A stretch of 64,000 nucleotides of DNA, taken from assembly GCF_033705735.1 (NCBI RefSeq), contig NZ_CP131132.1:62001-126000 (forward strand), written 5' to 3'. The notes under the pieces are model-generated. The model worked only from the letters and a program-made list of their open reading frames with translations. It did no database searches and was not told the DNA's origin. The DNA comes from Shinella zoogloeoides (GTDB lineage: Bacteria > Pseudomonadota > Alphaproteobacteria > Rhizobiales > Rhizobiaceae). Of this stretch, positions 1 to 46,078 are shown one piece after another; positions within the stretch are counted from its first letter, which is position 1; each line of letters opens with the position of its first letter. Position numbers and translations under genes: made by a program.

Positions 1-1467
1 CTCATCAAAATCGCGCATTGTAAGCGCGTCAGGCGACTGTTTTCTGGCTTCTTGGACGATGGCCGTTATCGTGCTTTCCGCAATCTCAGGCCGTGTGCGG
101 CCGGTCTTCAGAACAAGCTCTGTCTGCCAGTGATCGTACATTCCAGCCGCTTCCGGGCAGGGGGTTTGCATGCCGACATAGTTTAGAAAACGCCACATGC
201 TTCTGTCGGCAAACCGCAGCCAGAGGAACGTGTTTGGTGCCATGACCCCGGCAGATCGAGCGGCTTTAAGTGTACCATCCTTGCCGTCAGTAAGCGACGA
301 TGCCAAGACGCCAAATACGTATCCGTGCCGCTGCACGATCCTGTCTATCACATCGACCGGGCGCTTCGGATCGATCCCGGTGGCGGGCTTCACGATGATC
401 TTTGCCAGCTCTTCTTTCGCCCGCTTCGTTGTTTTGAAATTGGGGCCGACCTTTGCCAGATGTTCCGACAGGATTATCATGTTGGATGGCTGCTCGATGC
501 CGGTGCCGATATCAGCACCCTTTGCTTTCTTTTTCTTAGGCTTCCCGGCCTTTTTATCGGGATCAGGGTAGTCGTATGGCCCGATCACAAGACTGTCGCC
601 AAGCTTGGTCTTTTCACGGTTGATGTCGCGCCAGACATCTCGAAGGAACTCTTCGCTCGCATCCAAGACACTTGAGAGCTTGATGTCGCTGTCGTGAAGC
701 GCATTCACGCGCACAAGGGCCGAGTACAGGATCACGGTCGCGTACCATGGCAATTCATCTATCGCAGCCCTTACAGCGGCGTCATTACGAAGGTTCACAT
801 TTAGAAACGGGTTGTGCGGCCCAAAGGGCTTCTCTAGGGCCTTTCGCAGAGCGCTGCGATTGATTGCCCGTTCACCTGCCTTTCGGTCCTCGTCGGCTTC
901 TTCCGGCTTGGGGGAGGTCTGTTCTTCGTCGTTCTCAGGAACCTTGAATTTATCAGCGACGATAGCGCCGCTGTCGATCAGCAGCTCAAGTGCTGACATC
1001 GGCTGAGACGCAGGGCCGGAGCTGGCCGAATATCTGTGCATGGGGAATTTCAGGAAGAACTCGCAATGAGGATAGAACGGCGCGAAGCGCTGCATCAGCT
1101 CCTTGTGGCTCATTGCATACTCTGCATCCTTCTTCGGCCGCAGATAGGTAATGATGTGCTTGCTCTCGACCTTCGCTCTCATAAAGAGGCCGACCAGAAC
1201 TATGATCCCGGCGCACACCACGCCGAAGGGAAGGGACGACAGAAAGATCGACTGGATACTCAGGTCCTTGCCCGGCGTGTAGGCGAAATAGTCGCCCCAC
1301 GCGGTCAGTTTCCAAAGCGTGCCGGTTTCAGCAGTGCGAGCCGCGCGATAGAGCATTCCTACTGGCGCGCGGAAAATCACCCATACTACAGTTAGGATCG
1401 CCAGACAGAAAAACAGCGCCGTGCCGATTTCCAGCCATCCGACGCTCTTCTGATCCCTTGGTGCCAT
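1..1467 (-). CDS. dotM: DotM/IcmP-like coupling-complex protein (C-terminus cut by window)
   Basis: Open from ATG at 1467 to the window edge (489 codons). The right-arm copy shows that about 38 more residues would follow. Two N-terminal membrane segments are visible (about residues 10-31 and 67-88), then a motif FFLKFPMHRYSASSGPA and PMSALELL, as in DotM/IcmP/TrbA proteins. The C-terminal signature FLWLRFADRSMWRFLNYVG followed by TPCPEAAG and an HW pair is the family hallmark. DotM works with DotL at the inner membrane to recruit substrates to Dot/Icm and IncI-type secretion systems. It is divergent from topA. The left arm is unbroken here; the right-arm copy has indels. Confidence 0.85.
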   Translation of the reverse strand, partial: MAPRDQKSVGWLEIGTALFFCLAILTVVWVIFRAPVGMLYRAARTAETGTLWKLTAWGDYFAYTPGKDLSIQSIFLSSLPFGVVCAGIIVLVGLFMRAKVESKHIITYLRPKKDAEYAMSHKELMQRFAPFYPHCEFFLKFPMHRYSASSGPASQPMSALELLIDSGAIVADKFKVPENDEEQTSPKPEEADEDRKAGERAINRSALRKALEKPFGPHNPFLNVNLRNDAAVRAAIDELPWYATVILYSALVRVNALHDSDIKLSSVLDASEEFLRDVWRDINREKTKLGDSLVIGPYDYPDPDKKAGKPKKKKAKGADIGTGIEQPSNMIILSEHLAKVGPNFKTTKRAKEELAKIIVKPATGIDPKRPVDVIDRIVQRHGYVFGVLASSLTDGKDGTLKAARSAGVMAPNTFLWLRFADRSMWRFLNYVGMQTPCPEAAGMYDHWQTELVLKTGRTRPEIAESTITAIVQEARKQSPDALTMRDFDE

Positions 1468-1555
1468 TTTCCCTTTTCCCACTCGATCATTGACAATGAT
1501 TTCATTAGCGGAAACGTTATCAAATGTTTCAGCGATTTGCTATCAGGAGGGTGCA
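1468..1555. promoter_or_regulatory. Divergent dotM/topA promoter region
   Basis: The 88 bases between the two divergent starts hold a TTGACA hexamer at 1490-1495, pointing toward topA, with a weak AACGTT-type -10 region about 17 bases later. GAAAC (1511-1515) and GTTTC (1526-1530) form an imperfect inverted repeat that could be an operator. The topA ribosome-binding site AGGAGG lies at about 1546-1551. Binding partners are unknown. Confidence 0.4.
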
Positions 1556-3667
1556 GTGAAACTCATGATTGTCGAAAGCCCTACCAAGGCTAAGAAAATT
1601 GGATCGCTGCTTGGTTCCGATTGGCGAGTAGAGGCCAGCATGGGCCATATTGTAGATCTTCCAACGGACCAGATGGCCGTTGAACCGCAAACATACCAGC
1701 TCACCTATGTAGCATCCGAGCGCGGCCGATCTGTCATCAGCCGGTTGAAGCCATTGGTCGCCGAGGCCGATGCCATTTATCTTGCAACGGACCCGGATCG
1801 TGAGGGGGAGGCGATTTCCGAGCATCTGAAGCGTTACTTGCGCATCGAGCGGTATCAGCGGGTCACATTCAACGAGATAACCGAGACCGGTATAAAGGCG
1901 GCACTCGCCGCGCCTCGCCCGATTGATCGGCGGCTTGTCGCGGCACAGGAGGCACGCAGAGCAGCGGATCGGTTGATCGGCTACCGAGTGTCCTTTCCGA
2001 TATCGACGGCAGCGGGGCAGTCCCTGACAGCCGGTCGTTGCCAGTCGCCCGCAGTCCGCCTCGTTGTCGAACGGCAGAATGAGATAGACCGCTTCAAGGT
2101 GACAGACCATTTTTCGGCGTTAGCGGAGTTTGAGAACGGCTCGTGGACCGCCGAGTGGCAGACCAAATCCTTTCTGCAGGGCGATGACGAATACATCCTC
2201 GATCAGAGTTTGGCCGAGCGAGCTGCGGCTTGCCGCCGCTTCACGGTGACGGCAGCGGCCGAGAAGCCCGTTGCCAAGGGACCACCCGCACCGTTTACGA
2301 CCTCCGCGCTCTTGCAGGCGGCGGGAGCCACCCTTGGATACCCTCCAGCCCTGACACAGAAGCTTGCACAGAGCCTTTTCGAAGCCGGTTTGATTACCTA
2401 CCACCGGACAGACAATCCGAACCTCTCAGATGACGGGATTGCGGCTATCGGTGCCTATGCTGAGGGGCAGGGATGGCAGCTTTCGGAAAAAAAACGACGC
2501 TGGCCGCTGCCTGAAGGAGCACAGGAGGCTCATGAGGCTATTCGACCAACTCATGTTGAGGATCGTGAGGCGGGGGAGGATGACAAGCAAAAAGCGCTAT
2601 ACAAGCTGATTTGGCAGCGCGCCGTTGCCTCGCAGCTCGCAGATGCCGTCTACAAAACAGTGACGCTCGATCTCACGGCCGATGCCGGTGGCGAGCGCTT
2701 CCATTTCCGTGCTCGCAGCGCCGAGCTGGTTAAGCAAGGGTGGAGGATCGTTGCTGCGGATGAAAAGAGCGATGACGAAGATGAGGACGAGTCGACCAAC
2801 GGGCGCGTCCCGATGCTACAGCCAGGTACTTCCGTGACAGCGACGGGAGGCAAGATTTTGCGCAAGGCGACAAAGCCGCCCCGGCGCTACACCGAAACCA
2901 GCTTGATCCGCAAACTTGAGCAGATGGGCATCGGTAGGCCATCGACCTTTGCGGCTATCGTATCGAATATCTGCAACAAGAAATATGTTGTGGTGGAAAA
3001 ACGGTATCTCGTCCCGACACAGAGCGGCCGGGCCATCGTCGGAAACCTCGTCGGCCGTTTTGACTTCGCCGAATACGACTTCACCAAAGACCTCGAAAAA
3101 CGCCTCGATCTCATAGCGGAAGGCAGAGAACGCTATGTCGATGTGATCGCTGATCTTGATCAGCGCCTCGATGTTGAGCTTGGGAAGCTCGCGAGCGTGA
3201 AGCCTGCCCACCCATGTCCTAAGTGCGGCAAGGCGCTGCGACTTGTGACGGGTAAGTCGCGGAGCTTTTTCGGTTGTTCGGGCTATCGCGATGGATGCCC
3301 TGTCATTTGTGAAAACGACAACGGCAAGCCGGGAGCAGTCATCGAGCGGTCGGATACGCCTTCTGAGAAGCAGGCAGCGTTTGCAAAGCGGATCGCGGAA
3401 GAGAATGGCTTATCTCTGCCGGAAGAGGTTATGGCGTCTGCAAAAGCTCTCTCGGTGTGGATTGATGAGGCCCTTGCCGCCGCGCCGCCTCGACTTGCCA
3501 GCGACAAGCAGCGTGAGTTCATCGCGACCTTGATCGAGCAAAATGGGCTACAGCCCCCTGCCGGATGGCCGGATAATGTCACAAGCGATGTGGCGAGCGC
3601 CTTCATTTCCAAGAACGGGAAGGCTAAGGGAAAATCGAAGCCCGCGCGCAGGCGTAAAGCTTCATGA
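1556..3667 (+). CDS. topA: Type IA DNA topoisomerase
   Basis: About 703 residues; relaxes negatively supercoiled DNA by single-strand passage. The N-terminal TOPRIM domain has IVESPTKAKKI and the acidic metal motif DPDREGEAIS. The catalytic tyrosine is residue 282 in GLITYHRTDN. A four-cysteine zinc ribbon lies near residues 554-585 (CPKCGK, then FFGCSGY and GCPVIC). An unusual C-terminal half follows, ending in a basic KPARRRKAS tail. The GTG start at 1556 is preferred because AGGAGG lies five bases upstream and it gives the conserved N-terminus; an upstream TTG at 1490 would overlap the promoter. Plasmid topoisomerases of this kind (compare TraE of RP4) often accompany conjugation genes. 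The right-arm copy is broken by many indels. Confidence 0.92.
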   Translation: MKLMIVESPTKAKKIGSLLGSDWRVEASMGHIVDLPTDQMAVEPQTYQLTYVASERGRSVISRLKPLVAEADAIYLATDPDREGEAISEHLKRYLRIERYQRVTFNEITETGIKAALAAPRPIDRRLVAAQEARRAADRLIGYRVSFPISTAAGQSLTAGRCQSPAVRLVVERQNEIDRFKVTDHFSALAEFENGSWTAEWQTKSFLQGDDEYILDQSLAERAAACRRFTVTAAAEKPVAKGPPAPFTTSALLQAAGATLGYPPALTQKLAQSLFEAGLITYHRTDNPNLSDDGIAAIGAYAEGQGWQLSEKKRRWPLPEGAQEAHEAIRPTHVEDREAGEDDKQKALYKLIWQRAVASQLADAVYKTVTLDLTADAGGERFHFRARSAELVKQGWRIVAADEKSDDEDEDESTNGRVPMLQPGTSVTATGGKILRKATKPPRRYTETSLIRKLEQMGIGRPSTFAAIVSNICNKKYVVVEKRYLVPTQSGRAIVGNLVGRFDFAEYDFTKDLEKRLDLIAEGRERYVDVIADLDQRLDVELGKLASVKPAHPCPKCGKALRLVTGKSRSFFGCSGYRDGCPVICENDNGKPGAVIERSDTPSEKQAAFAKRIAEENGLSLPEEVMASAKALSVWIDEALAAAPPRLASDKQREFIATLIEQNGLQPPAGWPDNVTSDVASAFISKNGKAKGKSKPARRRKAS

Positions 3668-3685
3668 CATCAGCAGGGGAAACAG

Positions 3686-4084
3686 ATGGGCGTTCATCCT
3701 AAACAGCCGAACCAGATTGACATCGATGTGGGCAATAAAATCCGGCTGCGCAGGCGACTTACTGGCATGAGCCAGACGGCTCTAGGAACAGCGCTTGGGA
3801 TCACATTTCAACAGGTCCAGAAGTACGAGAAGGGCACAAACCGGGTCGGCGCAAGCCGACTGTCGGATATGGCCCGCATTCTAGGGGTGCCGGTTTCGTA
3901 TTTCTTTGAAGATGGGCAAAGCCATGATGTGGCTGAAAGCTCCGGGGAGTCTGAACTTCTTACTCAGTTCGTTGGCACTTCCGAAGGTCTAGCCTTGAAT
4001 CGTGCGTTCGCGCAAATACCCGATGGGGGTATCAGACGAAAGGTTCTCTCACTGGTGAAGGCTCTAGCCGACGAAGAGCAATGA
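3686..4084 (+). CDS. XRE/Cro-type helix-turn-helix regulator
   Basis: 132 residues. The helix-turn-helix spans about residues 17-70 (NKIRLRRRLTGMSQ, then GITFQQVQKYEKG and RLSDMARILGVPVSYFFED), a form very common in Rhizobiales. The C-terminus is acidic and ends LVKALADEEQ. It starts 18 bases after topA with an AGGGGAAACAG leader, so probably shares the topA transcript. It ends 13 bases from the convergent PH-domain gene. Probably a repressor of plasmid genes; its target is not visible. Confidence 0.85.
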   Translation: MGVHPKQPNQIDIDVGNKIRLRRRLTGMSQTALGTALGITFQQVQKYEKGTNRVGASRLSDMARILGVPVSYFFEDGQSHDVAESSGESELLTQFVGTSEGLALNRAFAQIPDGGIRRKVLSLVKALADEEQ

Positions 4085-4097
4085 CCGGATGGCCGTC

Positions 4098-4619
4098 CTA
4101 TTCGGCGTTGTTCTTGAGTGCCATAATCGTTCGTGATGCCTGCGGCGCTCCGCTGATCAGGTCAGCTACGATCTGATCGTCCCCTCGCGTACTGATCGAT
4201 ATCGAGCCGAAGCCGAGTATCCGGCCGAGAACGGATTGCGTAAGCTGAACGCCTATGATCTCTCGAACAGAGGTCGTGAACATATCTCGGCTGATGAAAC
4301 CGGTTCGCCAGAGCACGCGGTTACTGAAAACTCTAAGCTCTGTTGTCATGTACCTGATGAGGCACACGAGCACTTGTGTTGCAAAGCCCATGGCAATGAT
4401 GGCGGTCGCAATTCGGCAGACAAGGAAGATCGTGGGGTAAAAGCTCTCGTAAAGAGATAACCCGAGCACCATCGGGCCAAGATTGTGCATAAGGTAGAGG
4501 TCAGAGGTCCAGACGTACCAGAGAGCCGCTGTTCCGAGGCCAGCAATCAGCACCGGCCCGACGAATATGATTTTCGAGAGACGGTAGATCGTCAGTGGTT
4601 CTTGTTCGCCGTCTTCCAT
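4098..4619 (-). CDS. Membrane protein with bacterial PH-like (bPH2) domain
   Basis: 173 residues. Two hydrophobic hairpins at about residues 15-35 and 45-85 precede a soluble part reading VFSNRVLWRTGFISRD, REIIGVQLTQSVLGRILG and GSISISTRG. That order (membrane hairpins, TNRVLI-like strand, GRILGFG turn, short beta strands) is typical of YdbS/YdbT-type bPH2 proteins of unknown function. A GGAAG ribosome-binding site lies just upstream. It faces the XRE gene tail to tail. An almost complete second copy lies at 18015-18532. Confidence 0.7.
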   Translation of the reverse strand: MEDGEQEPLTIYRLSKIIFVGPVLIAGLGTAALWYVWTSDLYLMHNLGPMVLGLSLYESFYPTIFLVCRIATAIIAMGFATQVLVCLIRYMTTELRVFSNRVLWRTGFISRDMFTTSVREIIGVQLTQSVLGRILGFGSISISTRGDDQIVADLISGAPQASRTIMALKNNAE

Positions 4620-4714
4620 CCATCACTTCCGTTGTTTGTTTCACAACGAAGTCATATCATTTTTTGTTGTCGAAGGAAAAGCGGGAAAGGGGCGCATGAG
4701 CGCCCCTTCTGGTT

Positions 4715-4885
4715 TCAAGGTAGCCAGCGTTCGCGCGAGCACCAGTCGTCCAGCCAGTCGGCGGCAACCTTGTAAACGATCCACATGACGAATGCACCGC
4801 CGAGACCGATTGATGGAAATCCGGCCATAAAAGCGACAGTGAGGACGATAAGGGCGTGAAAGCTTGCTTCGATAGATGTGCTCAT
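4715..4885 (-). CDS. Small single-span membrane protein
   Basis: 56 residues starting MSTSIEASFHALIVLTV; one or two hydrophobic segments (residues 8-27 and 30-45), then DWLDDWCSRERW. GGAG lies 9 bases before the ATG at 4885. A longer reading starting at 4960 has no ribosome-binding site and is unlikely. No family recognised. It sits between the PH-domain gene and the cluster read leftward from the telomere. Confidence 0.55.
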   Translation of the reverse strand: MSTSIEASFHALIVLTVAFMAGFPSIGLGGAFVMWIVYKVAADWLDDWCSRERWLP

Positions 4886-5015
4886 TTTGTATCTCCAAGG
4901 TTTGAGCCGCAGGGAGATAACCCCTGCACCTTGATTCTCTCCCGCTTCCTTGCAAGGCACAAAAAGGCCCTCGAATCCGCCGATAGCCGATCAGACAGGG
5001 TTGGGTCGGAACCGC
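4886..5015. other. Short intergenic stretch
   Basis: About 130 bases between two genes read in the same direction. It contains the leader of the small membrane protein. No terminator or repeat was seen. Confidence 0.3.
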
Positions 5016-6048
5016 TCAGGTTTCCTTGTTTCGGGTTTTGACGAGCCGATACTCCTTGGAGACGACGCCGCTCTCACTGGCTGCACCAACCATGGCAGCT
5101 CTTACCCACACGGTCTTTTCAGGTAGACGACGAAGGTGGCCCCGGCGAAGATGAAGACGGGGGCTGGCGTGTGTTCCACTTGCGCTGCCGGTATTACCGG
5201 GGGACGGACGATCAGCGGCCAGCGCCAGAACCTTATAAGAAAAGAAAGGCTGCTTCCCCTTGGCAATCCGCGCCTTGTTCAGTTTGGCAGGGGCTTCAAT
5301 ATCCGCCGTCGCTACGTTTTCGCAGTTGAGGACTGCACACGCTTGAACCACGGCCATACCTTCATCCCTCGTGTCGTTCATTATGTTCGAATCCGGTTTC
5401 ACGGTCGCTTCTCGCAATGACCGCTTCGAAATGCTCCGGCTGAAGAATGAACGGCTCTGCTGCAAACTGCTGCGGCTTTTTGGGCAGCAAACCGGCGCTG
5501 TTAAGGGCTTCCATCGCGCGGGCGCTCAAAGGGCTGACTTGAGCCTGATCGACTGCTGCCAAGCTGTTCTCGTAGGGAACGAAAGCCCCGCCGATACCTA
5601 CATTCCACGTCTCGATGACATCCAGCCATGAAATAGGAAGGATAAAGACGCCTCCCTGCGGAAAGCGATCTAGGATGACGTTGAGATGCGCCAGTTGCGG
5701 CGGCGTTGCACCTGGCTCCCAACAAAGGGCAATGCGACGGGTTGACTTGTAGTGATCGAGATAACCCGCGTCCTTTGCATCGGTTTTCTGCCAAGGAGCT
5801 TCGAAAGCAACGAGCGGGAAGGGGAGCTTCAGGAGGTCTATGTGCGCTTGCGATACGTGCAGCGGATCAAGCAGCTCTGCGCAGTTGGGCAGGATAAATT
5901 TCACTGATCTGCGAAGCATATCGCTGACGATGCGGATCGCGTTGATGGACTGAACAAAATGCGGGGGGAGACGCTGTACGACCTCTTTCATGCTCTCAAT
6001 CGCATGGGCGCTATAGTTCAGCGCCGTAAAGTTCTCGCCTGTCTCCAT
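5016..6048 (-). CDS. Unknown protein with C-terminal RRGH motif, one gene split by a read error
   Basis: In this arm the gene is two overlapping frames (228 residues ending at 5362, and a frame ending at 5016). The right arm reads through the break with two extra bases, giving GFANIMNDTRDEGMAVV, so the true product is a single protein of about 343 residues. The N-terminal part (VVQRLPPHFVQSI) is mixed alpha/beta. The C-terminal part has KLNKARIAKGKQPFFSYKVL, then HASPRLHLRRGHLRRLPEKT and a WVRAAMVG end. The same C-terminal plan occurs in the neighbour at 6310-7113, so the two are paralogues. Proteins with this tail occur in phages and plasmids without known function. Confidence 0.7.
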
Positions 6049-6050
6049 TT

Positions 6051-6305
6051 CTAGTCTCCTTGCCCGTAGATCACTTCCAGAAGACCACGGGCATCCGCGT
6101 CTTCAATTGCTTTCAAAGCCGCCGCATGTCCGGCGACATTTTCACGTTCTCGTGCGAAGCGCGCTTCAACATCGCGCTTGAGAGTTTGGATCAGCTCGTG
6201 CTTCTCGGCGGTAGGAAAGACGGCATAGTGCTCAGCGGCCGCGAAGGCGACGTGCGGGATCGTAAACTCGTCAAGCGTCGGTTCATCTACATGATCCGAA
6301 GGCAT
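6051..6305 (-). CDS. Small acidic protein of unknown function
   Basis: 84 residues, mostly helical, with a charged centre (EKHELIQTLKRDVEARFARE) and EDADARGLLEVIYGQGD at the end. It lies between the two paralogous RRGH-motif genes, 2 bases from one and 4 from the other, so the three form an operon. The right-arm copy at 16374-16628 encodes the same protein, which confirms the frame. Confidence 0.75.
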   Translation of the reverse strand: MPSDHVDEPTLDEFTIPHVAFAAAEHYAVFPTAEKHELIQTLKRDVEARFARERENVAGHAAALKAIEDADARGLLEVIYGQGD

Positions 6306-6309
6306 GGGA

Positions 6310-7113
6310 TCAGACCTTCACAACATATTCGGGCTTGATGGGAATGCCTGTTTCCATATTGACGCAGCAAGGCGGGATGGGGATCATGCGGCCATCAGCC
6401 AGATGGCGAATATGACCTCTTCGCCAGTGTGGTTTGACGGTCCAGCCGCCCTCTCCCTTCCGGTTTTGTGATGCCTGTTGGCTGGCGCGAACATCGATCA
6501 CGATCATTGGGCCAATAGGCGGCTTTTTCTTCTGCAAGCGCTGCTTGTTCAAGCGCGCCGGGGCAGGCTCTTCCCGGCGGATGGCTTGCGGAGTGGCAAG
6601 GGCGCCGATCAGCGCCGCTGACACACCAAAGCCCGTGTCCACGAGCAGTTGCGTCGAATCGTTGTCGGCGTGGCTGACAAGGACGTGCTTGTGATCGCCG
6701 CAAACTCTCTGTCCGACTTGATTCAGGAAGACCAAGCCATTGCGGCGATGATTTTCGAACATGACGCGCACGGAAAGCGAGACGAGCTTTCCATCGATAG
6801 GGCTCATATTTTTCTCACAGAGAGCCGCCATATGGACGTGCTCATCGAGCACCTTCTGCACCCACGAGACCCAAAAAACATCGTGAGGGATAGGAGCAAC
6901 TTCCGCGTCCCATAGCTCGTTGGCAAAGTCTATGAATGTTTGGAGGGTATCGTCTTTGGGGTCTGCATCGAGAAAGCTGAAGGTAAATTCGGCGGCGCTG
7001 GCGGCGCACGCCTCAACATGCCGGGCCATCTCATCGATCTCATTGGCCTTCCATGGCTCCATTGAGCGGTAGTGGCCGGATTTCAGGTGTTCGAGGGCTG
7101 TGTGCAATCGCAT
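6310..7113 (-). CDS. Unknown protein, paralogue of the 5016-6048 product
   Basis: 267 residues in one frame. It starts MRLHTALEHLKSGHY. The C-terminal third has ARLNKQRLQKKKPPIGPMIV, then KPHWRRGHIRHLADGRMI and IPPCCVN. The order of a basic LNK-R-KK segment, a hydrophobic strand and an HWRRGHIR motif is shared with the neighbouring larger gene. The conserved Arg-Gly-His and paired cysteines might bind metal or nucleic acid, but no catalytic family is recognised. First gene after the nuclease gene in a leftward operon. Confidence 0.75.
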   Translation of the reverse strand: MRLHTALEHLKSGHYRSMEPWKANEIDEMARHVEACAASAAEFTFSFLDADPKDDTLQTFIDFANELWDAEVAPIPHDVFWVSWVQKVLDEHVHMAALCEKNMSPIDGKLVSLSVRVMFENHRRNGLVFLNQVGQRVCGDHKHVLVSHADNDSTQLLVDTGFGVSAALIGALATPQAIRREEPAPARLNKQRLQKKKPPIGPMIVIDVRASQQASQNRKGEGGWTVKPHWRRGHIRHLADGRMIPIPPCCVNMETGIPIKPEYVVKV

Positions 7114-7128
7114 TGATGGATCTCCGGT

Positions 7129-7548
7129 TTACGACTGACACCATTGGTTTCGATCACGGTATCCTCCGCGATAGGCATGGCCGAGGCCGAGCTTGATCAT
7201 CTGGTCTGCAATGTCTCCATGCTGCGTCATCACCTGCGTCAACACGCGGCCATAGCGATCTTCGCCTTGATCTCGGTATTGGATGCCGGGCGTGCTCATG
7301 AGACGCTGAAGCTGTTGGGTAGCGCGATCCGCAAGCGCTCGCTCCTGACCGCAACGAGCGCCTTCGCCAGCTTCTGGTGCGTCATAACCGACGATCCGGT
7401 ACTTAATGCCGTCCCGCCAGAACGTGTCTCCATCGACGATGCAGGTTATCCGCTTGCCCGTAGTGCAGATCGGCCATTGATCCTGTGCTGTTGCGGGTAA
7501 TGAGGTGGTGAGTGCTGCGAGAGCAGCGATTCCAGCTCTGATATGCAA
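7129..7548 (-). CDS. Exported thermonuclease-like (SNase) protein
   Basis: 139 residues. An Ala-rich signal peptide (residues 1-21, ending ATAQ) precedes a staphylococcal-nuclease fold: CIVDGDTF, YRIVGYDAPE (first catalytic Arg and metal Asp), an E after the Cys at about residue 66, and DRYGRVLTQV (second catalytic Arg). Four cysteines suggest periplasmic disulfides. The start appears to be TTG at 7548 with GGGAGC six bases upstream; no in-frame ATG gives the signal peptide. It lies 12 bases after the protelomerase gene, probably in the same transcript. Role could be DNA processing or scavenging. Confidence 0.85.
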   Translation of the reverse strand: MHIRAGIAALAALTTSLPATAQDQWPICTTGKRITCIVDGDTFWRDGIKYRIVGYDAPEAGEGARCGQERALADRATQQLQRLMSTPGIQYRDQGEDRYGRVLTQVMTQHGDIADQMIKLGLGHAYRGGYRDRNQWCQS

Positions 7549-7560
7549 TTCTTGCTCCCT

Positions 7561-9035
7561 TCAATTGTCCTCAGCTTCGCGCTCTTCGGCTGCTGCCTCG
7601 ATCTTTTTCGCCAACTGTTTTTTTACCCGGCGTGTCGCGCCGGCATCTTTTTGATCGGGGAGGTAGTATTTCATGTAGGAAGAGGCCGTTTCGATATCCT
7701 TCTCAGTGTGGCCGAGCGCTTCTGCGAAGAATGCGGCTTTCGTCTTCGACTTAGGCCGGAAAAACTGGTCCGCGATTTCCGCGTACAGTGCGCGAACGTT
7801 ATGCGCCTTGATTTTCTTGGCTTCGATCACGTTCGGCGTGTCTTCGAGCGAGACTTTTGGCCAGAGTTTTTCGAGGATTTCGTCACGGACGGCGGGAAGG
7901 ATGCACTTGGGGTTCGGAGCGCGCAGCAAGTCTGCTTTGAATTCGTCGCTCGTCATCTCGCGCCATATCTGGCCACTTTCACTGTAGCGGAGCACCATCC
8001 AAGCAAAAATGACATCTCGCGCTTTTGTCAGCACGGGGATCGAAACGACTGGTCGAATTGCGTCCCCTCGTTTCCACGAGTCTTTGCCTGTCCGGAGAAT
8101 AGGACGCGCCACGTCTCGTAGCCACGGCCACGGGTATGTTCTGTGTTCGTGGTCGGGTCTGCCATAATCGGCAGGGGCGAGAAGACGCCTTGGCAGAAGA
8201 TTTCGAAAGGGCGACGGCCGGTCAGGATACCGAGAGCCACGCCGATCTCGACGGCGCGTGTTCTCGATATATCAGAGGCCGTTTCACGAGCTGCTTGTTC
8301 CAAGGCGCTCCAAGAGGCGTCTGTGGCCGGAATAAGCTCCTTTGCGCGATCTAGGATATCCTGCCAGTGTGGCATAGGCACCAAGTCGCGGTGTTGCTCA
8401 ACAATTGCATCTCGATATTGGATGGATCGGGCCTTTTGGGCATCTTCGGGTGGTCTGACGATGGAAAGCGTTAGTTCATCATCCAGTCCGCGTCTGCGAA
8501 GCTCGTTGCGATAGGCGGCGGTTGTCGTCAGAACGGTGTTGCTCTTGAGGGTTTGCAGCATTTCGTCCAGCTCCGACTTCCAGAGCTTCCCGAGGCCGCG
8601 CTTATAGACGGCGCTGGCCTGCTTTTCGGTCTTGCCCTCTGCGAGCGAACGATCGTGCTCTTCTTTGAGCGTTTGAGCTGCTGTGCCAAACAGATCAATA
8701 CTATCGGCGCGGGTCGCCTTGCGCCCGCCAGCGCCGCGAGATTCAACCGTGCGGAGTGGATCGTCAGAGCGGTCGAGGACCTTAACGAAGTGCAGCGCCG
8801 GGTGATTGTCACCGTAGGCTTCACGAATTGCATTGCGGTAGCGCGAGGCATAGATGTTGCGCGTCGATACGGACTTGTCCGCAAACGTCTCCCATTCCTT
8901 TTCCCAAAGGTCGGCGTAATCATCGGCGTCGGCTGTCAGGTTTGCAACAAATGTTGCAATGGCATCCTTGACCACCGGGCGACGGCCGGTCTTTGCACGC
9001 TGCTGTTCGTCGGCGTCGGTCTTCTTCGCGTTCAT
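7561..9035 (-). CDS. Telomere resolvase (protelomerase), one artefactual frameshift near 8041
   Basis: Cuts a palindromic target and rejoins strands to form covalently closed hairpin telomeres on linear DNA. After restoring one C missing near 8041 (present in the right arm, giving SFPIPVLTKARD), the product is about 491 residues, close to Agrobacterium TelA and Borrelia ResT in size. Tyrosine-recombinase-type active-site residues are visible: Arg in ILTGRRPFEIF (274/275), Lys318 in FSGQAKTRG, Arg415 in HNVRALYAEIA, His443 in EALGHTE and nucleophile Tyr454 in SSYMKYY, with 11 residues between His and Tyr. The N-terminal 170 residues are helical. Its presumed target is the palindrome at 11624-11679. 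ATG at 9035; SNase follows after 12 bases. Confidence 0.9.
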
Positions 9036-9093
9036 TGAACTTTCTCATTTCCTTGATGTGCGGTGATCATTGGCGAAGGCTTCATGAAGCCGC

Positions 9094-9327
9094 TCACTGC
9101 GGTTCGCTTTCATCGCTGACTGTGAAAACCACCGTTTCACCTTCGATAGTGTACGGCACCTTTTTGCTAAGGAGCTGATCGGCCGCGATTTCCGGCAGAT
9201 TGTAGGTTTCCACGATGACCTTGCGCAGTTGGGGCCTGTCGTCTTCGAAATGATATCCATTAATCGCCCATGCGACGATTCCGGGCGTGTGAACGGCGGG
9301 GCTTGATCCGAGACGGTAGGTTGCCAT
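9094..9327 (-). CDS. Small conserved-looking protein of unknown function
   Basis: 77 residues starting MATYRLGSSPAVHTPGIVAW. ATG at 9327 follows a good AAGGAGATCGCAA leader. The C-terminus is VPYTIEGETVVFTVSDE. The gene lies just upstream of the protelomerase and is probably cotranscribed. One AAAAAGTAAAAATAA repeat sits about 60 bases upstream of its start. No family recognised. Confidence 0.6.
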   Translation of the reverse strand: MATYRLGSSPAVHTPGIVAWAINGYHFEDDRPQLRKVIVETYNLPEIAADQLLSKKVPYTIEGETVVFTVSDESEPQ

Positions 9328-9388
9328 TTGCGATCTCCTTGGATGACTATGGAGGCAGAATAAAATAAAAATATATGGTCGGCAACAT

Positions 9389-9403
9389 AAAAAGTAAAAA
9401 TAA
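9389..9403 (+). repeat. Internal copy of the subtelomeric A-rich repeat
   Basis: AAAAAGTAAAAATAA, preceded by CAACAT exactly as in the telomere-proximal copy at 11289-11303. It lies in the intergenic region between the 77-residue gene (and protelomerase) and higBA, where a regulatory or replication factor could bind. Confidence 0.6.
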
Positions 9404-9450
9404 CGACTGTTTATTTTATTAAATTGAGGGAGCAAAGCCCGATTATGCCC

Positions 9451-9478
9451 TTGTAGCGCGTAGCGTCACATGCTACAT
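9451..9478. promoter_or_regulatory. Likely HigBA operator
   Basis: TGTAGC at 9452-9457 and GCTACA at 9472-9477 form an inverted repeat with 14 bases between the arms, directly in front of higB; a second TAGCG lies between them. Antitoxins of the HigA type repress their own operon through such sites. Confidence 0.5.
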
Positions 9479-9484
9479 AGGAGT

Positions 9485-9763
9485 ATGATAATCGGCTTTC
9501 GACACAAGGGGCTTGAGACCCTTTACAAAACCGGCTCTGCCCGTGGGGTTCAAGCTGCTCATGCGCCGAAGCTGTCCCGTATCCTTGCTGCCTTAAATGC
9601 AGCGGCATCGCCTGCCGAACTGAACCAACCAGCCTACAAGCTACACCCCTTGAAAGGGACGCTGAAGGGGCATTGGTCGATATGGGTAAATGGCAACTGG
9701 AGGGTTACTTTCCGGTTTGTCGGAGCTGACGTGGAGTTGGTCGATTACGTGGATTATCATTGA
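9485..9763 (+). CDS. higB: HigB-type toxin (RelE/ParE superfamily)
   Basis: About 92 residues starting MIIGFRHKGLETLYKTGS, with the family's HPLKG, GHWSIWVNGNWRVTF and DYVDYH segments. HigB toxins are ribosome-dependent mRNA nucleases neutralised by HigA. The ATG at 9485 matches family starts, although GGAG is only one base away; an ATG at 9470 is the alternative. It is followed after 15 bases by higA, the usual toxin-first order. Likely a plasmid addiction module close to the telomere. Confidence 0.85.
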   Translation: MIIGFRHKGLETLYKTGSARGVQAAHAPKLSRILAALNAAASPAELNQPAYKLHPLKGTLKGHWSIWVNGNWRVTFRFVGADVELVDYVDYH

Positions 9764-9778
9764 AGGAGACATACAGTG

Positions 9779-10063
9779 ATGAAGAACCATCCCCATCCGG
9801 GCGAGCTGCTTCGCGAGGATGTTTTGGTGCCTCTCGGCATTGAGGTGACTGACGCGGCGCAGCGCCTTGGAATTGCCCGGTCTACGCTCTCTCGGATCAT
9901 CAACGGGAAGGCTGGCATTAGTCCTGATCTGGCGATCCGGCTTGAACGTGCTGGCGTCAGCACCGCACGGTTTTGGATGAATTTGCAGTTGAACTACGAA
10001 CTGTCCAAGGCCGAAGCGCGGGATCAGCCGGAAGTGAGGCCATTGCAGTCGGCAGCGGCTTGA
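9779..10063 (+). CDS. higA: HigA-type antitoxin
   Basis: 94 residues starting MKNHPHPGELLREDVLVPLG, followed by helix-turn-helix TDAAQRLGIARSTLSRIING and a C-terminal LAIRLERAGVSTARFWMNLQ helix typical of HigA/VapI antitoxins. AAGGAG overlaps the end of higB ten bases before the ATG. Binds HigB and probably represses the operon at the inverted repeat 9452-9477. Confidence 0.88.
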   Translation: MKNHPHPGELLREDVLVPLGIEVTDAAQRLGIARSTLSRIINGKAGISPDLAIRLERAGVSTARFWMNLQLNYELSKAEARDQPEVRPLQSAAA

Positions 10064-10139
10064 AAATCGGAATCGTTCGTTCATTGGATTTGGCACGCCC
10101 AAACGTTACCAGTCTTTGCAGGATATCGAGGGAACCAAG

Positions 10140-10349
10140 ATGAACGTCGTTTTTGCAGCAATAAGCGCCAGCCTCTTTTTGGCAATGCCTGCGATGGCTC
10201 AAAAGAGCGAAGTGAAACGCTCTCAACCATTTCAGGCGCAGGAGCGTTGCGAGACCAGATTGCAGGGACCGGAGCAGGAGCTATGCGAGGTGGCACAAAA
10301 GGCGACCCATGCGCCTAGCGGAAACCAAGAGAGCAGCGGAAGACAATAA
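10140..10349 (+). CDS. Small exported protein
   Basis: 69 residues with a clear signal peptide (MNVVFAAISASLFLAMPAMA, cleavage about residue 21) and a short polar mature part with two cysteines (ERCETRLQ and QELCEV). GAGGGAACC lies before the ATG. It follows higBA in the same direction after 76 bases. Function unknown. Confidence 0.55.
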   Translation: MNVVFAAISASLFLAMPAMAQKSEVKRSQPFQAQERCETRLQGPEQELCEVAQKATHAPSGNQESSGRQ

Positions 10350-10372
10350 GGGCACAGCCAGGTCATCGGGGC

Positions 10373-10624
10373 CTAGCTGCCAAGCGTACCAGCGTCCCGC
10401 GCCATCTCTTCTGCTGTACCCCATGCGTCTTCCCGGTCTTGAGTGTAGTATGCGATTGCCTCTGCCCTTTCACGCGAAAGGTTGGGGCGAGAGATGCGAT
10501 ATTCGCCCTCCCGCTTACTGATTGTCAGGCCGAGGGCGCGCACCGCGCCAAACAGGGCCTTGTCGTTTCGTGTGGGAACGTTGAGAGCATCGGCGATAAT
10601 TTTGGCTACAGTCACCATGTGCAT
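10373..10624 (-). CDS. Small helical protein of unknown function
   Basis: 83 residues starting MHMVTVAKIIADALNVPTRN. A central SKREGEYRISRPNLSRERAE segment resembles short DNA-binding proteins but no family is recognised. The right-arm copy keeps most of the frame. First convergent gene facing the higBA operon, 23 bases from its end. Confidence 0.6.
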   Translation of the reverse strand: MHMVTVAKIIADALNVPTRNDKALFGAVRALGLTISKREGEYRISRPNLSRERAEAIAYYTQDREDAWGTAEEMARDAGTLGS

Positions 10625-10635
10625 TCGATCTCCGG

Positions 10636-10821
10636 TTAGAATTCGTATGTTCGAGTGCCGTCCGGCAGCTCGCAGGCGATTTCCACGTGCAAGCTTTCGA
10701 TCTCGTCCGTCTCGTAGTATTCGTCACGCCACTTGATCGCCGCTCCGTAGCTCTCAGCCGTGTGCACGTCGCATTCGCGCTCGTAGCCTGCGTTTTCCAC
10801 CACAGTGTATCGCTTCTTCAT
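10636..10821 (-). CDS. Small acidic protein of unknown function
   Basis: 61 residues from MKKRYTVVENAGYERECDVH, with WRDEYYETDEIESLHVEIA and a C-terminal GTRTYEF. A GGACGCTGAT leader precedes the ATG. It is 11 bases upstream of the 83-residue gene and 1 base after the next gene, so part of a four-gene operon running away from the telomere. Confidence 0.6.
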   Translation of the reverse strand: MKKRYTVVENAGYERECDVHTAESYGAAIKWRDEYYETDEIESLHVEIACELPDGTRTYEF

Positions 10822-10822
10822 A

Positions 10823-11038
10823 TCAGCGTCCTTTCGGTGATGCTGCGGGCATCGAGGGGATCGTGCCGTAGGTGTACGTATCCAGCTTCTGGTTGGCGTG
10901 CTCGCGCTCGGCCTTGCGGATATCGCGACCATATCTGAGCGGATCAAAGTAGAACTCGATCTCAAGGCCAAGATCGCCATATGTGGCGACGTAGAACCGG
11001 GGCATTTCTACCCCGGCGCTGTTTAGGCATTTTGTCAT
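10823..11038 (-). CDS. Small protein of unknown function
   Basis: 71 residues from ATG 11038, or 60 from the internal MPRFYVATYGDLGLEIEFYF at 11005. Contains FDPLRYGRDIRKAEREHANQ. The first start is 1 base after the stop of the preceding gene, so the two are likely coupled. Confidence 0.55.
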   Translation of the reverse strand: MTKCLNSAGVEMPRFYVATYGDLGLEIEFYFDPLRYGRDIRKAEREHANQKLDTYTYGTIPSMPAASPKGR

Positions 11039-11039
11039 C

Positions 11040-11219
11040 TCATCGTTTCCTTGTGGCTGATTTGAAGGTGTGTTCGACGGTGATTTTGAGGAAGAGGGGG
11101 ATGGAGATTTCGAGGGCGATTTTGGTAGAGCCGTTGGGTTTGAGCTTTGCGAGGATACGGGCGAAGGAAGCCTTGAGGCGTCGGCCGGTTGCGCGGCAGA
11201 ACTGGAACGTCTGGAACAT
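11040..11219 (-). CDS. Small basic telomere-proximal protein
   Basis: 59 residues, MFQTFQFCRATGRRL to HTFKSATRKR, pI clearly basic, with a hydrophobic IALEISIPLFLKI segment. It is the gene nearest the telomere in this arm. The right arm preserves ARILAKLK and the whole C-terminal half, supporting this frame over the proline-rich alternative in another frame. Function unknown. Confidence 0.45.
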   Translation of the reverse strand: MFQTFQFCRATGRRLKASFARILAKLKPNGSTKIALEISIPLFLKITVEHTFKSATRKR

Positions 11220-11288
11220 TTGCGGACCTTTCGTTAGGCATCAGCGCCATGTGAAGACTATAGGCTTGAGGCCGCAGGCGGTCAACAT

Positions 11289-11604
11289 AAAAAGTAAAAA
11301 TAACTGAAAATAATTTTACGAAATAGGCGATTAAGGGGCTTGCGTTTAGTAAAAATATCAGGCATATTGAGACCATGAAGAGCGGGAAAGCGGGTTCCAC
11401 CATGACGACGACGAGAAAAGTAAAAAAAGCGAGAAAAGTAAAAATAATTGTTGACCTGAGCGCAGAAAACGGCCATAGTAGGATTGGAAAAGGCTCCGAT
11501 ATTGGCTGAACGCGCAAGAAAAGTAAAAAAATCGCGATATGGGCGATAAAAAGTAAAAATAATGCTTGCGATTAGTAAAAATAGCTGGTAATATAGTAAA
11601 ATTA
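11289..11604 (+). repeat. Subtelomeric AGTAAAAATA repeats
   Basis: About eight copies of a short motif lie between the last gene and the telomere: AAAAAGTAAAAATAA (11289-11303), AGTAAAAATA (11349-11358), AAAAGTAAAAAAA (11416), AAAAGTAAAAATAA (11434-11447), AGTAAAAAA (11522), AGTAAAAATAA (11552), AGTAAAAATAG (11574) and AGTAAAATTA (about 11596). Spacing is irregular (15-75 bases). All have the same orientation relative to the end. They may bind a replication, partition or telomere factor. Confidence 0.75.
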
Positions 11605-11623
11605 TGCGGGTGAAAGGGACACA

Positions 11624-11679
11624 GGCGGCGCGTTTAATATAAAACTACACCGGTGTAGTTTTATATTAAACGCGCCGCC
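11624..11679. other. Hairpin telomere / protelomerase target palindrome
   Basis: Perfect 56-base palindrome with axis between 11651 and 11652; the centre reads ACTACACCGGTGTAGT, flanked by TATAAA-type and GCGCGTTTAA arms. Beyond it the left arm has three extra bases (ACA near 11621-11623) and then symmetry resumes for kilobases. The size equals the 56-bp telRL target of phage N15 TelN. With a protelomerase gene 2.6 kb away, this is either a replicated telomere junction or the sequence obtained by reading round a closed hairpin. Confidence 0.9.
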
Positions 11680-13974: not shown

Positions 13975-15142
13975 ATGGTACGCGCGACCGACGCCGACGA
14001 CAGCCGACGCCGATGATTCGCCCGTCGTCAGGATGCCGAAAATTTGTTGGAGACCTTGCGCGACGCCGTATCGACGCGCGTTTGCGGACATCTGACGCGC
14101 GCTACGCGCAATGCAATTCGCAAGCAATTGACAATCACCCGGCGCTGCACTTCGTTAAGGTCTCGACCCTCTGACGATCCGCACGGCAAATCACGCGGCG
14201 TGACGCGACCCGCGCCTGATCTGTTTTGGCCTCGACCGATAACGACTTCCATCGTCGACCCGAGAGGCCAGCGCTATCGCAAAGGCCCGATCCATCCAAT
14301 ATCGAGATGCAATTGTTGAGCAACACCGCGACTTGGTGCCTATGCCACACTGGCAGGATATCCTAGATCGCGCAAAGGAGCTTATTCCGGCCACAGACGC
14401 CTCTTGGGATGGCCTTGGAACAAGCGCTCGTGAAACGGCCTCTGATATATCGAGAACACGCGCCGTCGAGATCGGCGTGGCTCTCGGTATCCTGACCGGC
14501 CGTCGCCCTTTCGAAATCTTCTGCCAAGGCGTCTTCTCGCCCTGCCGATTATGGCAGACCCGACCACGAACACAGAACATACCCGTGGCCGTGGCTACGA
14601 GACGTGGCGCGTCTATTCTCGGACAGGCAAAGACTCGTGGAAACGAGGGGACATTCGACCAGTCGTTTCCGATCCCCGTGCTGACAAAAGCGCGAGATGT
14701 CATTTTTGCTTGGATGGTGCTCCGCTACAGTGAAAGTGGCCAGATATGGCGCGAGATGACGAGCGACGAATTCAAAGCAGACTTGCTGCGCGCTCGAACC
14801 CCAAGTGCATCCTTCCCGCCGTCCGTGACGAAATCCTCGAAAAACTCTGGCCAAAAGTCTCGCTCGAAGACACGCCGAACGTGATCGAAGCCAAGAAAAT
14901 CAAGGCGCATAACGTTCGCGCACTGTACGCGGAAATCGCGGACCAGTTTTTCCGGCCTAAGTCGGGAAGAAGCCGCATTCTTCAAAGCGCTCGGCCACAC
15001 TGAAGGATATCGAAACGGCCTCTTCCTACATGAAATACTACCTCCCCGATCAAAAAGATGCCGGCGCGACACGCCGGGTAAAAAAACAGTTGGCGAAAAA
15101 GATCGAGGCAGCAACCGAAGGCGCGAAGCTGAGGACAATTGA
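13975..15142 (+). CDS. Mirror copy of the protelomerase gene
   Basis: Copy of 7561-9035, about 300 bases shorter because the N-terminal half is badly damaged. From about 14320 the sequence is good: LVPMPHWQDILDRAKEL, ILTGRRPFEIF, then GQAKTRGNEGTFDQSFPIPV in one frame. It shows that the C missing from the left arm at 8041 is really present. KIKAHNVRALYAEIADQFF is also intact. The His/Tyr end has small indels. Confidence 0.75.
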
Positions 15143-23471: not shown

Positions 23472-24905
23472 CACTGCTGCCCGATCTCTGTTCGCGACAT
23501 CAACAGGAGCATATGTGCGAGAGCACTATCGGTTCGACCTTCAAGGTTCTGCGCCAGCGAAGCTGCTGCGCGAGCTCAGGGCATTCTGCCGGGTCATATT
23601 TATCGCCAGCGAGCGCAAATCCTTGTCGGCGTTTGCCGCCGCGCTGCCTCCGCTGGTCATGTAAGTCCCCTCGCCTCCTGCCATCGCGGCAGAATTGTCG
23701 CTGTCGCCAGAACTGGTCGGTGTCTCGGCAACATCTTGGCCCGGCGTGCAGGTATTGGGGAGCGACTGGCTGCGACCGGCGCGAACAGCAGCCATGCCGA
23801 CGACAGGCACGCGCTCTTTCAAGTAGCGCTCTGGATTCACATAATACCACGTATTCGGGGATGCCGACGACAATGCATCCGAGGTGGCATAGCCGTTCGG
23901 ATCGCGTTTGCCGCCGCCTACGGAAACACGCAATCGTCAGTGCTCGATCCCGGCACGCATTTGCTCGCTTTGACGGCGCTTGCTGGAACTTGCACCTCGA
24001 AATGGAGGTGCGGTTTTTCCTGCCGACTGATTGTCGCCGATCTTGGCGATTTCTTCCCCGCGCTCACGTCTTTCGGGTCAGGCCGCGAATATGAGTGCAG
24101 ATAGAGCGTTCGGAACTGACTGCCTGTCACTTTGACGCCCATCGAACCGACGCTCAGTTTGCCGTCATGGGCAGCAAATAGAGGCTGATTAGTGGAAGCT
24201 TGGCCCTGCGCTCCCTGCGGATAGATGTCCGATCCGCGATGCCAGCCGTTACCAGAACCCGCGCCGGGGCGATTCAGGCACCGTACTCACTGAAGACAAC
24301 AGGACTCTGAACGGGATGGGCTGACAAGCAGGAGCCGCCCCACCTGCCGCGACCTCATCCCGCTGCACGTCTCATTGACCTGATTTTCAGCACATAGGTG
24401 CCCGCGCGCATTGCCGTCCACTGCTCTGCCAGTGCAGGAACCGCCGCTTGTGAGCCAATCTTTGAGGCCCCCGCTCCGACAAGGTGACTGCCGGCGATCC
24501 AAGCCGCCACGGGTGACAGTGACCGTTTATCGTCTGACCAATGTACTGCTGGTAATTCCCGAGATAGGTGAGGTTCCGGTTTCCGTATTCCAGAAATGCG
24601 GCGTCCTGCGCCGACGGCGTATTCAGATAGTCCTCTAGCGAGTTGATGCCATTCTTACCGGTCAAGTGCCGTCGCCGCGCATATACCCGACATCGATCAA
24701 AGCGGATCGGCCCATCTGATAAGCACCATAGTAACCGTTCCCGGTGTTGGTGCTATAGTTCCCCTGCCCTCGCTCTGCCGTATGTTGTTGAGCATCGGCC
24801 GCAATTTGTTGCGGTGGGCTGCGGGTTTCTGGCCGCATGGGCAAACATGGTGCCCGCGAGAAAGATCGTCGCGGCCGTGAACAGGATGCGCGAGGATCTG
24901 ATCAT
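23471..24905 (-). CDS. Two-domain peptidoglycan hydrolase (lysozyme-like plus M23), frameshifted
   Basis: A signal peptide (MIRSSRILFTAATIFLAGTM) is followed by a muramidase/transglycosylase-like region (ERGQGNYSTNTGNGYYGAYQ, ALIDVGYMRG, AFLEYGNRNLTYLGNYQQYI) and then a LytM/M23 endopeptidase part with LYLHSYS and the HxH motif KPHLHFEV. The C-terminus, after correcting a shift near 23550, is LAQNLEGRTDSALAHM. At least five frameshifts occur. Such enzymes open the cell wall for conjugation machines. The ATG overlaps the previous gene's stop (ATGA). Confidence 0.7.
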
Positions 24906-25326
24906 GGAAGCTCCACCTGTTTGCCGCAAATCGAAAGCTTGTCGTCAGTCACATCGACCGTATTCCGGTCTTGGCAAGCGTTGATGCGCTCACTTGTCGC
25001 CAGCACCTTGAAGTCAGGCGAAACACGCTGGACGTACCATGAGCAAGAATTGGCGCCGCACAGAGGCGATCCCATCATCGAGACAAGGTAAGTGTTACCC
25101 TTCGCCTCAAAAGAGGCATACATGAACTCGTAATTCGCGCCCATAACCTCTTGGATATCGTTCTTCCACAAGCGGTTCATAATCGAAGCAACGACATTCT
25201 TCGGATCGTTGATCTCGGCCGGGTTAAAAGCTCTGTGAACGTCAACGGTGCCGCCATGGTGGCGGTAGACGGAAGCGCCGTGGCGACCGAAACAGCAGTA
25301 ATTATGGCCGTTCGCTTCAACTGCAT
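24902..25326 (-). CDS. Exported protein of unknown function
   Basis: About 141 residues: signal peptide MQLKRTAIITAVSVATALPS with AxA site near TMAAP, then after one indel near 25225 NPAEINDPKNVVASIMNRLW and a C-terminal domain with two cysteine pairs (PLCGANSCSWYVQR and NACQD...SICGKQVELP). Overlaps the hydrolase start by ATGA. First gene of the operon; the DNA up to 25500 is its divergent promoter. Confidence 0.6.
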
Positions 25327-25499
25327 GAGTTTTCCTCTCCTTGCTCAGCGCGCGAGTGCTACTCCTACTCGCACAAGGCGCAGACGAAGATTCCAGCGCC
25401 TTGACTGGAAACTGTTTTGCCAGAAGAAAGGCGACATGACAATGTTTCCGTATCGAGATACATTGTCGAATGAAACTCGAAACAGGTCACGGACAAGGT

Positions 25500-45640: not shown

Positions 45641-45649
45641 TCGCGGCTG

Positions 45650-46078
45650 ATGCCGAATTCAGCGGCAACAGCTCGGCGGCGGCTGCAATTCGGCGTTGCG
45701 GCGATTGAAACAAGCCGGCTTGTGTGGCGGCGATTTGCAGGACCTTCGAAAAGGAGCAGGAACGATGTTCGTCGTTCGGTGGTGGTTTGTCGTCCATCGC
45801 TGCCGAAAATGAGCCGGGTGGCGAAGCTGGCCTTGGACGGGTGGACGATGGGAATGGGGCAGGCCAGCGCCGACAAGCCGCTGGAGGCCACGCTGCTCGA
45901 CGCTGTTCGGATTGAAGCCGCAAACATCGCTCTGATGGCTTTTCAGGTCAAAGACAATGCGAGAACGGAACTGGCGCTGTCTTCCTATGCCCTGTCTCGG
46001 GTTAACCGAGCTGTGTTCAACGGCAACGAGGGCGTTGTCTCTGTAGGCGCTGGCCAGCGCCGCGCCGGTCTTCAATAG
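45650..46078 (+). CDS. Unknown transfer-region protein, N-terminus damaged
   Basis: A 142-codon frame; the convincing part is MSRVAKLALDGWTMGMGQAS to ALSSYALSRVNRAVFNGNEG (helical). The N-terminus before about 45800 lies in mixed frames. It ends 10 bases before the next gene. No family recognised. Confidence 0.4.
   Translation: MPNSAATARRRLQFGVAAIETSRLVWRRFAGPSKRSRNDVRRSVVVCRPSLPKMSRVAKLALDGWTMGMGQASADKPLEATLLDAVRIEAANIALMAFQVKDNARTELALSSYALSRVNRAVFNGNEGVVSVGAGQRRAGLQ

Follow-up and report, generated by a model that had tools for sequence, protein, structure and literature searches.

Results

Features around a fold axis in the window

The window, that is the whole 64,000-nucleotide stretch analysed here, corresponds to bases 62001-126000 of contig C3, one of four contigs of a 5.79-Mb genome. 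At positions 11624-11679 it holds a perfect palindrome of 56 bp, with its centre at 11651|11652. No other perfect palindrome of at least 18 bp occurs in these 64 kb, in which a 28-bp arm is expected by chance about 9e-13 times. The features of the window are, in order of position:

1..11651, plus strand: clean copy, last 11.65 kb of a linear plasmid as proposed below, ending at telomere A
1..1482 (contig 61887-63482), minus strand: DotM-like T4BSS protein, truncated where the window begins (Pfam run on the 99.8%-identical copy on plasmid p6 of strain M15)
1490..3667, plus strand: DNA topoisomerase I, 725 aa, a backbone gene
5298..11651, no strand: terminal inverted repeat, 6,354 bp, matching 6,360 bp at the opposite end with 99.89% identity
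6310..7113, minus strand: 267-aa protein in the terminal repeat, 70% amino acid identity to pEL101
7129..7548, minus strand: 139-aa protein with an SNase domain, within the terminal repeat (Pfam searched with the copy at the opposite end)
7570..8049, minus strand: C-terminal remainder of the frameshifted end-A resolvase
8028..9035, minus strand: telomere resolvase, N-terminal 335 aa, end-A copy, frameshifted
11293..11601, minus strand: subtelomeric array of eight TTTTACT (AGTAAAA on the plus strand), single orientation
11624..11679, no strand: fold axis at 11651|11652, perfect 56-bp palindrome, likely hairpin telomere of end A
11647..11656, no strand: telomere core ACACCGGTGT, common to eight other axes
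11649-11654, no strand: predicted 6-bp cleavage stagger ACCGGT, placed by the stagger of known enzymes (PMC3558466)
11652..64000 (contig 73652-126000), minus strand: poor reverse-complement second reading, whose ORFs are mirror copies, many broken by deletions
14234..15004, plus strand: broken mirror image of the resolvase gene, in the noisy strand

A preliminary description of this DNA had reported a perfect 56-base palindrome, which is true of the letters. Without gaps the symmetry ends after 28 bp on either side, because three bases of the left arm are missing from the right arm; this is the first indel between two copies of the same sequence, one clean and one poor (see below), and it sets the limit of 56 bp. 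For this reason the 56 bp are not comparable with the lengths of known resolvase targets, with which they had at first been found to agree. When gaps were allowed, the left arm (11,651 bp) aligned to the right arm in three pieces of 8,454, 1,964 and 89 columns with identities of 97.1%, 92.6% and 88.8%, respectively. The symmetry of more than 11 kb per side that had been noticed at the outset thus extends much further, and the mirror spans, with gaps, nearly the whole 221,542-bp contig.

The contig holds one sequence twice

Self-comparison of C3 (self-alignments shorter than 200 bp were dropped) showed that nearly the entire contig consists of one sequence present twice, on opposite strands, with two turning axes. 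Axis A lies at contig 73651|73652, which is the axis of the window, and axis B, with the same core, at contig 175399|175400. One copy, running from axis B through the contig join to axis A, is clean and contains most of the long ORFs; it measures 119,794 bp, a total length that is not secure because a 944-bp repeat borders on the join (contig 221542/1). This clean copy is called the unit in what follows. The second copy is poor and measures 101,748 bp; it reads across the place of the contig join. Its identity to the clean copy varies along the contig, being 77-80% in the ~70 kb adjoining axis B, 83-90% in the 30 kb that follow and 96-98% in the 20 kb adjoining axis A. At axis B the noisy arm loses the symmetry after 11 bp. 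The aligned part of the poor copy comprises 72,521 matches, 7,970 deletions, 4,341 substitutions and 959 insertions, i.e. deletions outnumber insertions by about 8:1 (alignments shorter than 150 bp and those more than 6% off the expected diagonal were left out of this error profile). From the layout of the two copies it follows that window positions 11652-64000 belong to the poorer second reading.

Nanopore reads of inverted duplicates are described to miss bases in the second arm (Spealman et al., PMC7229812). We infer that sequencing reads ran round a closed end, which would have yielded a deletion-rich second copy, an idea that does not by itself explain the identity of 96-98% within 20 kb of axis A.

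The unit also contains near-identical direct repeats (unit positions 24387-25330 and 45200-46143 as well as 36963-38673 and 39521-41231; C3 199786-216630 and the contig end), and one of them stops exactly at the end of the contig.

Both axes are the ends of a long terminal repeat

Starting from the axes, the clean arms A and B match over 6,360 bp with one mismatch and six gaps, after which there is no match. The core pattern NYACACCGGTGTRN was found at two places in the 5.79-Mb genome, both of them the axes, and the pattern written backwards as a control was found at none. Each end has eight copies of the motif TTTTACT within its first 360 bp, versus five copies, both orientations counted, in the remaining ~118.6 kb; when the first 400 bp were simulated 5,000 times with a first-order Markov model, the motif occurred 0.29 times on average and at most four times. 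A related T-rich array with similar spacing is present at the ends of pEL101 and of the M. denitrificans contigs described below and absent at the Tokpelaia end. The TTTTACT array is possibly a set of candidate binding sites for a telomere or replication protein. The 267-aa protein of the terminal repeat gave no Pfam or PHROGs match when the other end's copy was searched.

A telomere resolvase of the TelA type is encoded in the repeat

An intact resolvase of 491 aa is encoded at end B (contig 178017-179492), and the end-A copy is frameshifted. The latter starts at window position 9035, 2,616 bp from the axis, in line with the distance of 2.6 kb given in the preliminary description. The protein matched PF16684 with E=8e-40, above the curated cut-off, and all matches to the resolvase in its own genome fell on C3. 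In a sequence search of the PDB, the best five distinct sequences were TelA, the lowest E being 2.4e-45, and ResT followed at 0.026. An AlphaFold model of the resolvase (pLDDT 80.9, pTM 0.60) was used for a structure search, in which all six matches at E<=0.001 were TelA (best 2e-16), followed by ResT at 5e-3. By model and alignment, the enzyme shares the fold and the catalytic domain of TelA, the resolvase of the linear chromid of A. tumefaciens, together with five aligned catalytic residues: R275, K318, R415, H443 and Y454, invariant in 29 of 29 aligned rows, align with Arg255, Lys286, Arg366, His394 and Tyr405 of TelA. The chemistry of the reaction therefore looks conserved as far as can be read from sequence.

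Other positions differ from TelA. Overall identity to two Agrobacterium telomere resolvases is 28-29%, and the predicted target hexamer is ACCGGT versus TCATGA. The position of TelA Tyr363 is occupied by His in the Shinella resolvase and by Asn in 12 of 16 rows of its clade. The TelA residues Tyr201 and Arg205, which are needed for hairpin formation by TelA (PMC3558466), align to Gln200 and Ser204, so that this TelA-type feature is absent and the refolding step probably differs from that of TelA. These two residues do not define the family, since the TelA authors call them not well conserved among protelomerases (PMC3558466).

The frameshift indel of the end-A copy was found in no other copy of the gene. 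The four resolvase arms of strain M15 (see below) carry other one-base indels, two of which are present in three of the four arms; at one end the two arms contradict each other, and we therefore read the M15 indels as assembly errors.

The same core lies at the axes of related replicons

The core ACACCGGTGT was found at nine axes including both Shinella ends; in the search of plasmid records for fold axes, inverted repeats shorter than 300 bp were dropped. Outside the core the nine axes fall into three types of half-site (Shinella and M15; pEL101 and M. denitrificans; Tokpelaia), i.e. the flanks have diverged and the core has not. The pattern was built from the Shinella, M. denitrificans C11 and Tokpelaia axes, for which it provides no independent test, and the axes found after it was fixed are those of a second M. 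denitrificans contig, both axes of pEL101 and the axes of M15 p5 and p6, the latter two being near copies of the Shinella element.

Plasmids p5 and p6 of Rhizobium oryzihabitans M15 (NZ_CP048637.1 and NZ_CP048638.1), a strain sequenced by Illumina and PacBio (PMC7232506), fold at positions 8058 and 9865, respectively. Both are deposited as 'complete' linear plasmids, each starting with fold-back arms. With nucleotide matches shorter than 500 bp left out, the clean unit was 99.93% identical over 31.95 kb to the fetched part of p5 and 99.96% identical over 41.58 kb to p6. At ~99.9% identity to the unit, the two M15 replicons together hold both ends of a similar element, and they may be parts of a single linear plasmid. 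No such core was found in the right-hand 40 kb of p5.

The plasmid pEL101-131 of A. deltaense EL101 (NZ_CP143887.1), deposited as a circle of 131,537 bp, has its axes at 16941 and 103060 with long mirrored arms. It resembles the Shinella element in carrying the core at two axes, a syntenic backbone with Dot/Icm, topA and parM-like genes, a resolvase that is 53% identical and a homologous skew minimum, and it differs in that 86,119 bp separate its axes, in its half-site outside the core, and in the lack of matches to the Shinella ORFs of the region shared with M15 p5 (E018-E035). M. denitrificans contigs C11 and C13 start with palindromes of 86 and 92 bp, 43 and 46 bp beyond the axis. Given this start so close to a telomere axis, C11 and C13 may represent both ends of a single linear plasmid; the resolvase has a single match in that genome, on C11, and none on C13. 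M15 p5 and p6, pEL101-131 and Tokpelaia each have a resolvase gene near the fold axis.

Among 394 genomes of the family, the telomere pattern was present in three, all with a resolvase of the clade, a figure that shows rarity more than association because the pattern was made from these genomes. PF16684 was found in 12 of the same 394 genomes (11 over the cut-off): three belong to the long clade, seven to one genus taken as Agrobacterium, one is partial and one weak. The other nine resolvase-bearing genomes lacked the pattern. PF16684 was found in one of 397 genomes of the order, and a model of the clade resolvase found matches in three of 385 genomes of the class, strong only in its own genome. 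Plasmid records of Xanthobacter, Phaeobacter, Paracoccus and Paroceanicella with weaker resolvase matches had no such core in the stretches fetched, and the ends of one Agrobacterium-type chromid assembly showed no recognisable telomere. Two protein scans of viral contigs, with the resolvase and with the clade alignment, retrieved no relative. Twelve viral-contig loci with the pattern AANYACACCGGTGTRNTT were counted as chance occurrences, as their palindromes measured only 10-24 bp and no resolvase lay in the stretches searched around them (tblastn, 14 queries).

A probable chromosomal case in Candidatus Tokpelaia

In Candidatus Tokpelaia sp. JSC161 (QEND01000001.1, axis near 352442) the same core is the centre of a perfect palindrome of 4,866 bp that contains two back-to-back resolvase genes. 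The palindrome is flanked by chromosomal housekeeping genes, metE and acs on one side and pabB-like and metG-like genes on the other, and pyc is present as a full gene of 1,171 aa at one arm and with its last 336 residues only at the other. Likely, the two ends of a linear chromosome were joined here during assembly. In three Tokpelaia relatives the flanking acs is absent and relatives of pyc are only distant.

Backbone and cargo of the plasmid

By its gene content the contig fits p2_Teo12 of Shinella zoogloeoides Teo12, and gyrB of the host has S. zoogloeoides as its best named match, at 98% identity. This plasmid was published with 221.54 kbp as one of three circular plasmids, with genes for TRIS degradation and with a pointer to p5 of M15 (PMC10848231); the main text of that paper does not contain the word 'nanopore'. 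The ORFs at C3 about 188400-206700 are ~99-100% identical to glyA, D-serine ammonia-lyase, choline dehydrogenase and transporter genes of M15 p5, and this gene set agrees with the TRIS-degradation clusters reported for p2_Teo12.

Pfam searches identified DotH/IcmK, DotI/IcmL, the C-terminal domain of DotM, topoisomerase I and a VirC1/ParA-type ATPase on the plasmid, and the proteins matching TrbI-like, T2SSE-type ATPase and T4SS_TraI families are taken for DotG, DotB and DotC. The assignment of the ParM-like gene rests on an actin-like N-terminal domain below its Pfam cut-off, and PHROGs yielded one replication-initiator-like plasmid protein. The relaxase families PF03432 and PF03389 had three and one matches in the genome and none on C3.

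The order of the Dot/Icm, topA and parM-like genes is common to pEL101. The cumulative GC skew has its minimum at unit position 97,792 (C3 about 51650-52060), where transcription diverges beside the ParM-like gene, and that of pEL101 lies at 65,996. The minimum falls at a homologous divergent spot in both plasmids, which suggests an internal origin.

Discussion

The palindrome as a probable hairpin telomere

We consider it very probable that the palindrome in the window is the hairpin end of a linear plasmid of ~119.8 kb, the two strands of which were assembled end to end into a 'circle' of 221.5 kb. The preliminary description had already called the palindrome a telomere, and this reading is strengthened by the presence of two axes in the contig, by terminal repeats that start at the axes and each carry a TelA-type resolvase gene, and by the same core in relatives that encode such an enzyme. 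Covalent closure of the ends and their cleavage by the resolvase are predictions made from the letters.

The proposed cycle would run as follows. Replication would start at the internal origin at element position 97,792 and the forks would pass round both hairpins, leaving a circular dimer joined head to head. At each replicated junction two molecules of the 491-aa resolvase would bind as a dimer and, via Tyr454, make cuts that lie 6 bp apart around ACCGGT, after which the strands would be refolded and resealed as two hairpins.

A true circular head-to-head dimer, as a standing replication intermediate or an unresolved plasmid, would give the same letters if present in the cell, and replication of hairpin-ended replicons is known to pass through such a molecule (PMC3558466). 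The plasmid was published as circular (PMC10848231), near axis A the two copies agree at 96-98%, and one of the two resolvase copies is frameshifted as assembled. The gene at the other end, however, is intact. A stable dimer would moreover be expected to be polished equally in both halves, but one half reaches only ~77-80% over ~70 kb from axis B, and M. denitrificans C11 and C13 start 43 and 46 bp past the axis, as expected of hairpin ends in draft assemblies. Taken together, we regard a non-linear dimer as improbable.

A chimera of library preparation or assembly (snap-back artefact) without any biological end has even less to recommend it. The letters of the noisy mirrored copy are certainly a product of reading or assembly, but a chimera should not stop at one core, and the same axis core is present in the separately made records of M15, EL101, M. 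denitrificans and Tokpelaia, each from a genome encoding a related resolvase, with the pattern in only 3 of 394 family genomes. Equally remote is the idea of open ends protected by a terminal protein, of the kind found on linear Streptomyces plasmids with their long terminal inverted repeats. Such a repeat is present here, but in an open end no strand continues into its complement, yet the contig runs through both axes, and the element encodes a telomere resolvase. Such enzymes are typical of phage-plasmids of the N15 kind and this one matched PHROGs at E 1e-15 (families of unknown function), but a search of 50,697 phage records at E<=1e-5 gave no match to it, two protein scans of viral contigs gave no relatives, no structural PHROG was found among the 9 of 136 ORFs scanned, 7 of the 8 non-resolvase proteins having no match at all, and the backbone carries Dot/Icm-like transfer genes, so that a telomere phage is highly unlikely.

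Relation to known hairpin replicons

The phages N15, phiKO2 and PY54 are linear with hairpin ends formed from a palindromic site by an enzyme of the same superfamily (TelN/TelK). The Shinella element, which very probably has such ends, differs from them in the centre of its site (CGCGCG for TelK, PMC3558466), in its Dot/Icm plasmid backbone and in long repeats that each carry a resolvase gene. The published target centres are TCATGA for TelA, CGCGCG for TelK and GTATAC for the presumed VHML site (PMC3558466); by comparison of these letters with the central ACCGGT, the target specificity would be new, as the preliminary description had guessed.

Linear Rhizobiaceae plasmids with hairpin ends and Dot/Icm genes are known already, having been reported in November 2025: Kuzmanovic et al. 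2025 (PMC13293297) described them in six strains on the basis of fold-back reads and gels. These pLin plasmids share with the Shinella element a terminal repeat, a resolvase, topoisomerase I, ParA, a ParM-like protein and Dot/Icm genes, hairpin ends being predicted in our case. The terminal repeat is 6.36 kb long here versus 1.1-1.25 kb in the pLin plasmids (PMC13293297). No relaxase was found here for the two families searched, nor is there one on the six sequenced plasmids of that study, and the mined AB3 replicon has a gene annotated as relaxase (PMC13293297). For one pLin resolvase, an identity of 67% to the chromid enzyme in the same strain is given, and six further replicons that were mined carry distant resolvases, 28-30% identical to pLin (PMC13293297). 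Because it is 28-29% identical to two Agrobacterium enzymes, the Shinella resolvase probably belongs to this mined second group, a placement made by the level of identity.

The main text of PMC13293297 contains neither 'palindrom' nor 'oryzihabitans' and mentions Shinella once as a genus name, and no target-site analysis was seen there; PMC13077888, in the part available, only cites that study, and the main text of PMC12661939 contains neither 'linear' nor 'telomer'. Among the matches listed from the open literature, there was no account of p2_Teo12 as linear or of a ACACCGGTGT telomere core, and the letters of the core matched unrelated titles. A linear reading of pEL101-131, the 73 kb shared at ~99.9% with the M15 replicons and the Tokpelaia telomere contig were likewise not found in print. 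The new parts are the telomere core common to the clade and the Tokpelaia case.

Implications

We tentatively put forward a broader picture, which we hold with somewhat less than even confidence: a second lineage of telomere resolvases, apart from Agrobacterium TelA and with its own code (fixed ACACCGGTGT, AT-rich flanks), would maintain hairpin-ended Dot/Icm plasmids that cross genera of the Rhizobiaceae with catabolic cargo (TRIS), and would have made the chromosome of Tokpelaia JSC161 linear. If the linear reading is true, a catabolic plasmid published as a circle of 221.5 kb is a linear molecule of ~120 kb, the genes annotated in the second copy of p2_Teo12 are mirror copies, and the pEL101-131 deposit has the same fault. 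The common core provides a ready target for biochemistry on a resolvase lineage distant from TelA and a simple letter pattern with which further hairpin telomeres can be found in assemblies. Finally, because this presumably linear plasmid carries transfer genes and matches replicons of another genus at ~99.9% identity over 73 kb, the passage of closed linear DNA between cells would become testable.
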